NCBI GenBank assembly: GCA_022823505.1
Contig: JAJEIA010000030.1
Location: forward strand, 1-59,769
From: Dehalococcoidia bacterium
Lineage (GTDB): Bacteria; Chloroflexota; Dehalococcoidia; Lucifugimonadales; UBA3495
Direction: 5' to 3'
Length of the DNA stretch: 59,769 bases
The notes beneath the pieces were generated by a model. The model was not told where the DNA came from. It saw only the letters and a list, made by a program, of their open reading frames with translations, and did no database searches. Made by a program: the position numbers and the translations under genes. Shown here one piece after another: positions 28,001 to 30,211 of the stretch (position 1 is the first letter of the stretch; every line of letters begins with the position of its first letter).

Positions 28001-30211
28001 ATGTTACGCATCTACAACACCCTGACGAAGAACGTCGAGGAGATCCGGCCGATGACGCCCGGCAAGGTGTCCATGTACACCTGCGGGCCCACGGTGTACC
28101 GGTATGCGCACATCGGGAACCTGCGCACGTACCTGATGGCGGACTGGATCCGGCGGATCCTCGTGGCTGACGGCAACGAGGTCTACCACATCAAGAACAT
28201 CACCGACGTGGGCCACATGCGCCAGGAGCTGGCGGAGGCCGGCGGCGACAAGATGATCATGGCCGCGCTGGCCGAGGGCAAGTCGCTCCAGGAGATCGGC
28301 GAGTTCTACGCGGACGTTTTCTGGCGGGACGAGGAGCGGATCAACATCCTGCCGGCGCACGTATTTCCCTGGGCGTCGCACCACATCCCCGAGATGCTGG
28401 ATATGGTGGGCACACTGATGGGCAACGGCTCGGCCTACGAGGCGGGCGGCAACATCTATTTCAACGTGAACAGCTACCCAGAGTACGGCAAGCTGTCGCG
28501 CAACTTCGGGGGCGACCTGCTGGAGGGAGTACGCGCCGAGGCCGACCCGCTGAAGCGCGATCCGAGGGACTTCACCCTCTGGAAAGCGGCCGAACCGGGT
28601 CGGGACGTGAAGTGGGACAGCCCGTGGGGCGAAGGCTTTCCCGGCTGGCACATCGAGTGCTCGGCCATGGCGCACAAGTACCTGGGCGAGAAGTTCGACA
28701 TCCACACGGGCGGCGTCGACAACGTGTTCCCGCATCACGAGGACGAGATCGCGCAGAGCGAGGGAGCGTTCGGGCAGCAGCACGTGAACTACTGGGTGCA
28801 CGGGCAGCACCTGCTGGCGGATGGGGCCAAGATGGCGAAATCGGCCGGGAACGTGTTCCTGATCGAGGACCTGTCGACGCGGGGGTTTGACCCGCTTGCC
28901 TTCCGCTACCTGTGCATGACGGTCCGGTACCGGCACCGGATGAACTTCACCTTCACGTCGCTGCGGGCGGCGGAGAAGGCGTTGACGGGCCTGCGCAACC
29001 GCATCTGGGTGTGGCGCAACATGTCGGGCAACGGCGCGGGCCACCACGCCCTGAGCGCCGAGGGCCAGGAATGGAGCGGCAAGTTCTGGGACGCGGTGCA
29101 CAACGACCTTGACCTGCCCACGGCATTGGCAATCACCTGGGCCATGGTGCGGTCGGACCTGCCGGCGTCGGACAAGTTGGAATTGATCCTTGACTTTGAC
29201 CGCGTGTTCGGCCTGGACCTGGACCAGGTTCCGGAGCGGTACGAGATCGGCACTCAGAACAGCAATGCGCTGGAACGCCGAGCCGCCCTGCGGGAACAGG
29301 CGGCGTACCGCGATGCCGACGCGCTGCGGTCGCAGATGGTGGAAGGCGGCATGGTGGTGCAGGACACGGGAGTCGCCACGCTGGTGCGTCCGCAGACGCC
29401 GCTGGAACTGCAAGAAGCGCGGTGGGCCTCGGTGTCCGCTTCCCGGGAAGTGCCGTCACTGCTGGATCAGCCGGACCTGTACGACTTCACGTTCCTGGTC
29501 AACGCCTACGATTACGTTGACGACGTGCGCCGGTGCGTTGAGGCGGTGCTGCGCCACACCGGCGGGGCATCGGTGGAGATCATCGTGGTGGACAACGGGT
29601 CAACGGACGGCACGGCGGAGTACCTGGAGGAGGCGCAGGCCGAGCACGAGAGGGTGCGGGTGATCCACTGCGACCACGTGGTGGGCGACGCCGCAGGCAA
29701 GAACATCGGGTTGAAGCAGGCGCGTGGACGCTACATCGTGCTGCTGGACGCCTCTACCGAGGTGGTTGGGGACATCCTGTCACCGGTGGCGGAAAACCTG
29801 GCCGATCACAGCATCGGCGTGTTCGGACCCTACGGTTTGACGACGGACGACATGCAGCACTTTCACGAGGAGGTTGACCGGGGCGACGCCGACGCGATGC
29901 AGGCGTACTGCATGGCTTTCCGACGGGCAGACCTGCTCTCCGTTGGGTTGATGCACGAGTCATTCCGGTTCTACCGGAACCTCGACATCGACTATTGCTT
30001 CCAGTTCAAGAACTCCGGTTACCGGGTCGTGTGCGACAGCAGCCTGCCGATGGTCCGCCACGAGCATCGCCAGTGGGAGGAGTTGGAGGAGAACCAGCGG
30101 GACGAGCTCAGCCGGAAGAACTTCGGCCGGTTCCTGAAGCGCTGGGGCAACCGACCGGACCTGCTGATCAACCCCAACGCACGGGGGTTCGACACGGGGT
30201 TCCGGCACTGA
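28001..30211 (+). CDS. cysS: Cysteinyl-tRNA synthetase fused to a family-2 glycosyltransferase
   Basis: 736 aa. Residues 1-470 are a complete class I Cys[17 protein letters not shown] (zinc Cys and HIGH-type signature), WHIECSAMA (zinc Cys), [13 protein letters not shown] (zinc His/Glu), the KMSKS loop as KMAKSAGN, and the helical tail with [15 protein letters not shown]. Residues about 485-736 are a GT-A glycosyltransferase ([46 protein letters not shown]; a C-terminal Arg/His-rich end). Ordinary CysRS is about 460 aa. GAGAGGT before the ATG at 28001 fixes the start. No stop or slip separates the halves. How the second domain serves the synthetase is unknown. Confidence 0.9.

Follow-up and report, generated by a model that had tools for sequence, protein, structure and literature searches.

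A second cysteinyl-tRNA synthetase of Chloroflexota that carries a glycosyltransferase domain

The fusion gene and its two enzyme domains

The DNA examined here is a stretch of 59,769 nucleotides from a Dehalococcoidia bacterium (assembly GCA_022823505.1, contig JAJEIA010000030.1; hereafter the window), in which a single uninterrupted frame of 736 codons runs on the forward strand from an ATG at 28001 to a stop ending at 30211. The protein of 736 amino acids comprises a complete cysteinyl-tRNA synthetase (CysRS) followed on the same chain by a glycosyltransferase (GT) domain of the GT-A fold and family GT2, as the initial annotation of this DNA had proposed; that description stands, since the frame is open throughout and matches PF01406, TIGR00435 and PF00535. 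A GGAG (27989–27992, forward strand) that from its sequence is a likely ribosome-binding site lies 8 bases before the ATG. Full-length relatives of the gene occur in many genomes, and we regard the fusion as real, conserved and unexplained. Neither a CysRS–GT fusion nor a free GT with a synthetase hairpin was described in the literature searched, a search outside which most subscription papers lay.

The CysRS catalytic domain spans residues 1–330 (28001–28990) and is recognized by PF01406 (tRNA-synt_1e, 6.5e-95, at 17–326 in a numbering one higher than that of the 736-residue protein), by TIGR00435 (cysS, 403.4 bits against a cut-off of 340) and by a phmmer alignment of residues 1–460 with Escherichia coli CysRS (1li5); the top-scoring NCBIfam model, NF011108, is also a CysRS model (441 bits, under its own cut-off of 780). 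Conservation was counted over 66 fused copies, which include six pairs fetched twice and of which 49 remain at less than 90% identity. The equivalents of E. coli C28, C209, H234 and E238 are invariant in all 66, these being the zinc ligands Cys28 (28082–28084) and Cys220 (28658–28660) and the other zinc-site residues in the stretch from His245 to Glu249 (28733–28747). The HIGN motif (residues 37–40, 28109–28120) keeps H37 and N40 in 66 of 66 copies, with I, L or V at position 38 (58, 6 and 2 copies). In the KMAKS motif (residues 277–281, 28829–28843) the equivalents of E. coli K266, M267, K269 and S270 are kept in 65 copies (the first K) or in all 66 (M, K and S), while the third position holds Ala in 58 copies and Ser in the other eight. 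The initial annotation had called this Ser-to-Ala change conservative and unusual; the motif reads as stated but is not unusual among its relatives, and KMAKS is a family trait given its occurrence in 58 of the 66 copies. Twelve comparisons with relatives at 82–95% identity gave dN/dS of 0.02–0.07 for the catalytic domain, and the catalytic site of this CysRS looks intact from its sequence.

Behind the catalytic domain follow a helical region (residues 331–410, 28991–29230; 1li5 alignment and helices in model ma423b5faac07; dN/dS 0.04–0.31) and a CysS_C-like anticodon hairpin (residues 416–462, 29246–29386) with the residues R427, R431, Y436, D440, R443, G450 and D455. The hairpin is recognized by columns that stay conserved across 49 fused proteins and 16 stand-alone ones; Pfam CysS_C stays under its cut-off in the window protein (16.2 bits against 23), and DALR_2 was not matched there in a search to E 0.1. 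A whole-chain model reached a pLDDT of 70, with values below 50 in the KMSKS loop and at the GT end, and because of this moderate quality the geometry of the domains is not used as an argument.

The GT domain occupies residues 493–725 (29477–30175) and is identified by PF00535 (Glycos_transf_2, 4.3e-21, 76 bits against a cut-off of 23.3, at 501–609 in the same shifted numbering), by model me6b39dc854a3 and by Foldseek. The model of the GT domain alone (pLDDT 79, pTM 0.80) retrieved the GT-A structures 6p61 (E 4.4e-12), SpsA (6e-11), WrtF, K4CP and TarP. Three motifs stand out: DNGSTDGT (residues 531–538, 29591–29614), which from knowledge of GT2 families we take to bind the nucleotide; DASTE (583–587, 29747–29761) at the position of the DxD motif; and FYRNLDID (657–664, 29969–29992), presumably, on the same family knowledge, the region of the catalytic base. 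One copy, L138 (genome G136, 8982–11384), has a frame that slips inside the GT, either through a sequencing error or because the copy is decaying. Since it is out of frame there and its GT letters are noise, it was omitted from the GT counts, which leaves 48 copies less than 90% identical and 65 in all. Among the 48, D531 is kept in 42, D583 in 47, S585 in 46, E587 in 45, D662 in 48, D664 in 46, H689 in 48 and W692 in 46; among the 65, position 585 is Ser in 63. The dN/dS of the GT domain is 0.03–0.10, and residues 641–725 are more conserved than 493–640 (mean majority 0.67 versus 0.58, values in which L138 is included).

With bacterial CysRS (TIGR00435; E. coli 1li5/1u0b, Borrelia 3sp1, Elizabethkingia 6ujd) the protein thus has in common the catalytic domain, the zinc site, HIGN, KMxKS and the hairpin, but it adds a GT-A domain after the hairpin, mostly carries KMAKS and coexists with a normal cysS (see below). 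With GT2 enzymes of the GT-A fold (PF00535; SpsA 1h7q, WrtF, K4CP, 6p61) it shares the fold and the nucleotide-binding motif, but it has D-x-S-x-E in place of DxD and a CysRS hairpin in front.

Spread of the fusion and its status as a second CysRS

A scan of a species-genome collection with peptide patterns from the window's own protein found 26 further records that match over residues 1–722 or 1–736 at 60–95% identity, all of them Chloroflexota by title (some 'SAR202' or 'Dehalococcoidia') and four titled 'chromosome: 1' (OX638345.1, OY282456.1, OY282565.1 and OY282494.1). Translated from the start of the match, a frame of 725–736 codons is open in 25 of the 26; in the remaining one (L028) it is lost near a masked stretch. 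These relatives bear on the possibility, raised in the initial annotation, that two genes had been joined by an assembly error at about base 29,440. The source genome (G000) is indeed a bin of 164 contigs with 87% completeness and a contamination of 7, but the same protein recurs in the 26 other records, including the four 'chromosome: 1' ones, and a join made in assembly or binning is for that reason excluded, its remaining probability being negligible.

The architecture was then sought at three depths. In the near group it was found in 46 of 60 genomes, the window's own included (its family accounts for 35, out of 36 genomes, and the order outside that family for 11, out of 24), with the first 30 residues in another frame in G019. 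A class sample of 244 other genomes held 28 full-length fusions and three that were cut or broken, so the search for this two-domain architecture in other genomes, which the initial annotation had proposed as a check, gave a positive result. Across a phylum sample of 301 Chloroflexota genomes, again including the window's own, the GT domain searched alone at E 1e-15 or better matched in 80. These genomes were also searched with the CysRS part, and the places were paired by hand: in 39 of the 300 other genomes the GT and this type of CysRS share a contig and a strand and are no more than 350 bases apart, 23 genomes have both in separate places, 14 the GT only and four the CysRS type only, the split between 'both' and 'GT only' depending on a choice of CysRS made by eye. 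One genome listed as GT only, G487, actually has a gapped fused frame (L161). On the GT side the pairing omits the window's own genome, the weak rows G428, G470 and G479 and the second rows of G483 and G553; on the CysRS side it takes one place per genome, judged by eye to be of the fused type, and leaves out housekeeping-like matches (40–47% identical), for example G410, G320, G545, G508, G563, G315 and G393, as well as G332, G324, G340, G381, G451, G550 and family f145. In four genomes of family f120 the GT and CysRS genes are convergent neighbours. Fourteen deeper fused sequences were read, of which 13 look complete and one (L161) is without part of the catalytic domain; the motif is KMAKS in 13 and KMAKA in one. 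A His-rich C-terminal tail follows the GT in nine of these 14 (L155, L158, L159, L161, L163–L166 and L168), in two of the 66 class-level copies (L069 and L133) and in none of the 16 stand-alone proteins; on a zinc enzyme such a tail is possibly metal-binding.

The fused CysRS is a paralogue of the normal cysS. A normal cysS of 456 amino acids, beside a frame that by eye resembles IspF, lies on another contig of the window's genome (G000:C40), which refutes the idea that this genome might have no separate cysS. A second CysRS match is present in all 46 near-group fusion genomes, though only as a fragment in G027; in the class sample, 29 of 31 fusion genomes have two or more CysRS matches at E 1e-60 or better, the second place having been located in at least 23 of these 29, and the two genomes without a second match are 76–78% complete. 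That the fusion serves as the sole CysRS of the cell is ruled out by the separate cysS genes of its own and its relatives' genomes. The initial annotation had coupled a second cysS to an inactive fused copy; the second gene exists, but the retained catalytic residues and the low dN/dS (0.02–0.07) of the fused one suggest that it may well be functional.

A tree of catalytic domains with 93 rows, in which 34 class-level fused copies were used and from which L032 (already in as a fused copy), L045, L046, L161 and L180 were left out, gathers 46 of the 47 fused rows into a single clade (support 99/93) and keeps the canonical cysS genes of fusion genomes apart from them (19 rows, 100/98). The divergent fused row L150 falls outside the main clade, beside a degenerate relative, and CysRS genes of this type that are not fused, from families f108, f118 and f120, likewise fall outside the fused clade. 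Several CysRS genes deserve mention in their own right. In genome G074 of the same class, a CysRS gene related to the fused type but not itself fused (L131:4466–5850) lies directly behind the canonical cysS and is a degenerate CysRS, having lost a zinc ligand (GWHIED) and KMSKS while its frame is open. The canonical cysS genes of the fusion-bearing genomes G043 and G054 (L089 and L095) have altered KMSKS motifs (TMSKS and KMSRH). A third CysRS in G013 (L082, G013:C25) sits on a 5.7-kb contig, clusters in the tree with two rows that include one from Lentisphaeria, and is probably a contaminant of that bin.

Genes for tRNA-Cys were sought by a pattern search and ARAGORN, to which only tRNAs that fit the pattern are visible. 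Exactly one tRNA-Cys(GCA) turned up in each of 14 genomes among 17, including 12 of 14 fusion-bearing ones; with these two methods none was found in G000 (incomplete), G052 or G053, and three further pattern matches (in G001, G003 and G015) held no tRNA-Cys. In the phylum sample the pattern matched in 256 of 301 genomes, mostly once and in some two to five times. A second tRNA-Cys dedicated to the paralogue was seen in none of the 17 genomes, and the single gene implies that the paralogue serves no extra tRNA-Cys visible to the pattern.

The anticodon hairpin and the possible target of the glycosyltransferase

The GT also exists outside the fusion. Sixteen stand-alone GT proteins were read (family f120 supplied eight, f117 four, and f108 and f118 two each), which are part of those found in the phylum GT search, and in all 16 the frame that encodes the GT begins its GT part behind a CysRS-type anticodon hairpin, while the CysRS genes read from those four families retain a hairpin of their own. 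In eight of the stand-alone proteins scanned with Pfam, CysS_C was over its cut-off in three, below it in three and not reported in two. The GT module is thus independently tied to a CysRS anticodon hairpin, and the free GT genes of four families that all carry this hairpin are new here. We take the functional core of the appendage to be the anticodon hairpin plus the GT, a unit that also exists as a free protein.

The hairpin keeps residues that in E. coli CysRS touch the tRNA. There, according to an account that cites Hauenstein 2004 (PMC12684709), Arg423, Arg427, Trp432 and Asp436 contact G34 of tRNA-Cys. Their equivalents in the fusion are R427, R431, the aromatic position 436 and D440, three of them mapped by alignment and that of R423 placed by the shared offset of 4, and these mark the region as a CysRS anticodon domain. 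Over 49 fused copies R427 is kept in 48, R431 in 47, an aromatic residue at 436 in 48, D440 in 49, R443 in 49, G450 in 46 and D455 in 49; the stand-alone hairpins have R427, R431, A439, D440, G450, D455 and the aromatic residue at 436 in 16 of 16, with R (12) or K (4) at position 443. Because the hairpin precedes the free GTs and the equivalents of the G34 contacts are kept, the simplest reading is that the hairpin delivers the GT to tRNA-Cys, and we infer from the sequences that the hairpin–GT unit would bind this tRNA.

The initial annotation had listed the tRNA among several possible substrates of the GT, and it is this earlier idea that we now favour: tentatively, and as something short of probable, we read the protein as a glycosyltransferase module that is directed at tRNA-Cys and built onto a second CysRS. 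The hairpin would dock on tRNA-Cys at the side of the anticodon where G34 lies and so hold out the anticodon arm to the GT. The GT domain would then transfer a sugar to tRNA-Cys or act on it in a related way, the transfer, the identity of the sugar and its site all being guesses. The CysRS part would activate cysteine and could charge the same tRNA, with modification and charging coupled on one chain. The wider proposition, that many Chloroflexota glycosylate the anticodon arm of a tRNA-Cys free of queuosine and that the enzyme has been built into a second CysRS in many lineages, we consider doubtful. If the protein does act on tRNA-Cys, it would represent a new kind of tRNA modification enzyme in a largely uncultured bacterial branch, and a new tRNA modification coupled to cysteine charging.

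Synthetases with added domains are already known, and the idea of a tRNA modification arises from a simple domain argument. Animal tRNA glycosyltransferases that act on queuosine, such as QTMAN, offer a likeness, although we know of no synthetase fusion among them. An enzymatic domain is likewise joined to the methionyl-tRNA synthetase (MetRS) of Mycoplasma penetrans, which bears an N-terminal aminotransferase that supplies methionine (PMC7694997; PMC13215547), and not a GT. The animal enzymes resemble the proposed one in being sugar transferases at a tRNA anticodon, but they place their sugars on the queuosine of tRNA-Tyr and tRNA-Asp (PMC12518689), whereas tRNA-Cys has the anticodon GCA.

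Several observations weigh against this reading. Queuosine, the tRNA base known to be glycosylated, is an anticodon base of the His, Asn, Tyr and Asp tRNAs and not of tRNA-Cys (PMC12518689). The hairpin region evolves fast (dN/dS 0.08–0.57), and its conserved residues may be structural, holding the hairpin's own fold. Canonical CysRS loses identity towards its anticodon domain in a comparable way: that of the window's genome is 88% identical to that of G003 in the catalytic domain and 65% in the anticodon domain; between the fused copies of the same two genomes (L026 in G003) the values are 90% and 55%. Fourteen of the 76 genomes on the hand-made list hold the GT without a fused-type CysRS, and no tRNA-modification gene was seen among the nameable neighbours in the part of the neighbourhood scanned. 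In the GT itself, the DAS motif pointed out initially is present, but it sits where DxD is expected and its second Asp is absent. The suggested check for an intact DxD-like acidic pair accordingly came out negative, position 585 being Asp in none of 95 in-frame proteins (65 fused, 14 deeper and 16 stand-alone), most of which have D-x-S-x-E at this site. Finally, D531 is lost in 10 and D664 is lacking in nine of the 16 stand-alone GTs, and some of these may on that account be inactive.

The same losses underlie the main alternative, which we think rather unlikely: that the GT-A domain has ceased to act as a glycosyltransferase and has become an RNA-binding or oligomerization appendage of a second CysRS isoform, perhaps one that responds to stress or metal, the free hairpin–GT proteins then being tRNA-binding relics or regulators. 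The absence of DxD in 95 of 95 proteins and of D531 in 10 of 16 stand-alone copies is what it would predict, as are the better conservation of residues 641–725 than of 493–640 and His-rich tails that could bind metal. It is harder to reconcile with the fused copies, which keep D583 (47/48), D662 (48/48), E587 (45/48) and D531 (42/48) and whose GT evolves at a dN/dS of 0.03–0.10. Were the GT inactive, the question would remain why many Chloroflexota keep a second CysRS under strong selection.

Another role would be the synthesis of a cysteinyl-glycoside thiol akin to mycothiol or bacillithiol, the GT supplying the glycoside and the CysRS-like domain attaching cysteine in the manner of MshC; this we judge unlikely. 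MshC, the cysteine ligase of mycothiol synthesis, is without a CysRS-type anticodon hairpin, which is present in the fusion. Foldseek matches to 8hfn and 3c8z suit the idea, and MshC shares with CysRS its fold and the first half-reaction, the formation of Cys-AMP (PMC9736012). The fusion nevertheless falls far under the MshC family cut-off (TIGR03447, 223.7 bits against 485.1), and the alignment is limited to the catalytic part (residues 13–316), whereas the fusion family keeps the anticodon hairpin. As for partner enzymes, two observations would suit it: two MshB-like deacetylases occur in the window's genome below the cut-off (167 and 161 against 224 bits), in a search that also matches Bacillus subtilis, and BshC was not found in the 16 genomes searched (three of 14 control genomes were positive). 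Two others go against it: MshD reached 22 of 163 bits, and no thiol gene was seen among the nameable neighbours. A weak MshB, no convincing MshD and no BshC leave room for a role as cysteine ligase, against which the retained anticodon hairpin speaks.

The structural matches of the GT suggest, lastly, that it might modify a protein or a cell-surface glycan, with the CysRS as a fusion partner of convenience. WrtF, TarP, K4CP and RmlT, all of them among its Foldseek neighbours, are sugar transferases of cell-surface polymers, and one group of families has a gene for a MatE transporter upstream. A travelling companion would not be expected to keep the CysRS hairpin when free, as the GT does in 16 of 16 cases, and no sugar pathway was recognized nearby; we hold this explanation to be improbable.

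Neighbouring genes

No neighbour gene is constant across the families compared. In the window the fusion is flanked by an NYN-domain protein (27267–27863) and by a frame with a weak PaREP1 match (30271–30657), of which the former matched none of the other regions compared and the latter matched L005 only. Further upstream are a frame of 326 amino acids without a Pfam match to E 0.001 (25903–26883) and a single chain of 760 residues in which two segments belong to CoA-transferase family III (23215–25497). Recurring neighbours in family f1 are a DAO-type FAD oxidoreductase, a double CoA-transferase, MeaB, a Band_7 protein and NfeD.

In the distant families f6, f9, f11, f16 and f30 a pyruvate kinase gene lies directly upstream on the same strand (confirmed by Pfam at L073, L078 and L145). 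In f9, f16 and f18 the opposite strand carries, at a distance of a few kilobases, frames for MetRS, for a polyprenyl synthetase and for a protein of the TP_methylase family, all confirmed by Pfam at L078; RsmI is a member of the TP_methylase family, and a second synthetase and possibly an rRNA methylase are thus near the fusion there. The MatE transporter mentioned above is upstream in another group of families (Pfam at L149). In two genomes of family f118 (L186 and L188), genes resembling etfB and etfA, identified by Pfam in the first and by eye in the second, stand directly before the stand-alone hairpin–GT gene and run in the same direction.

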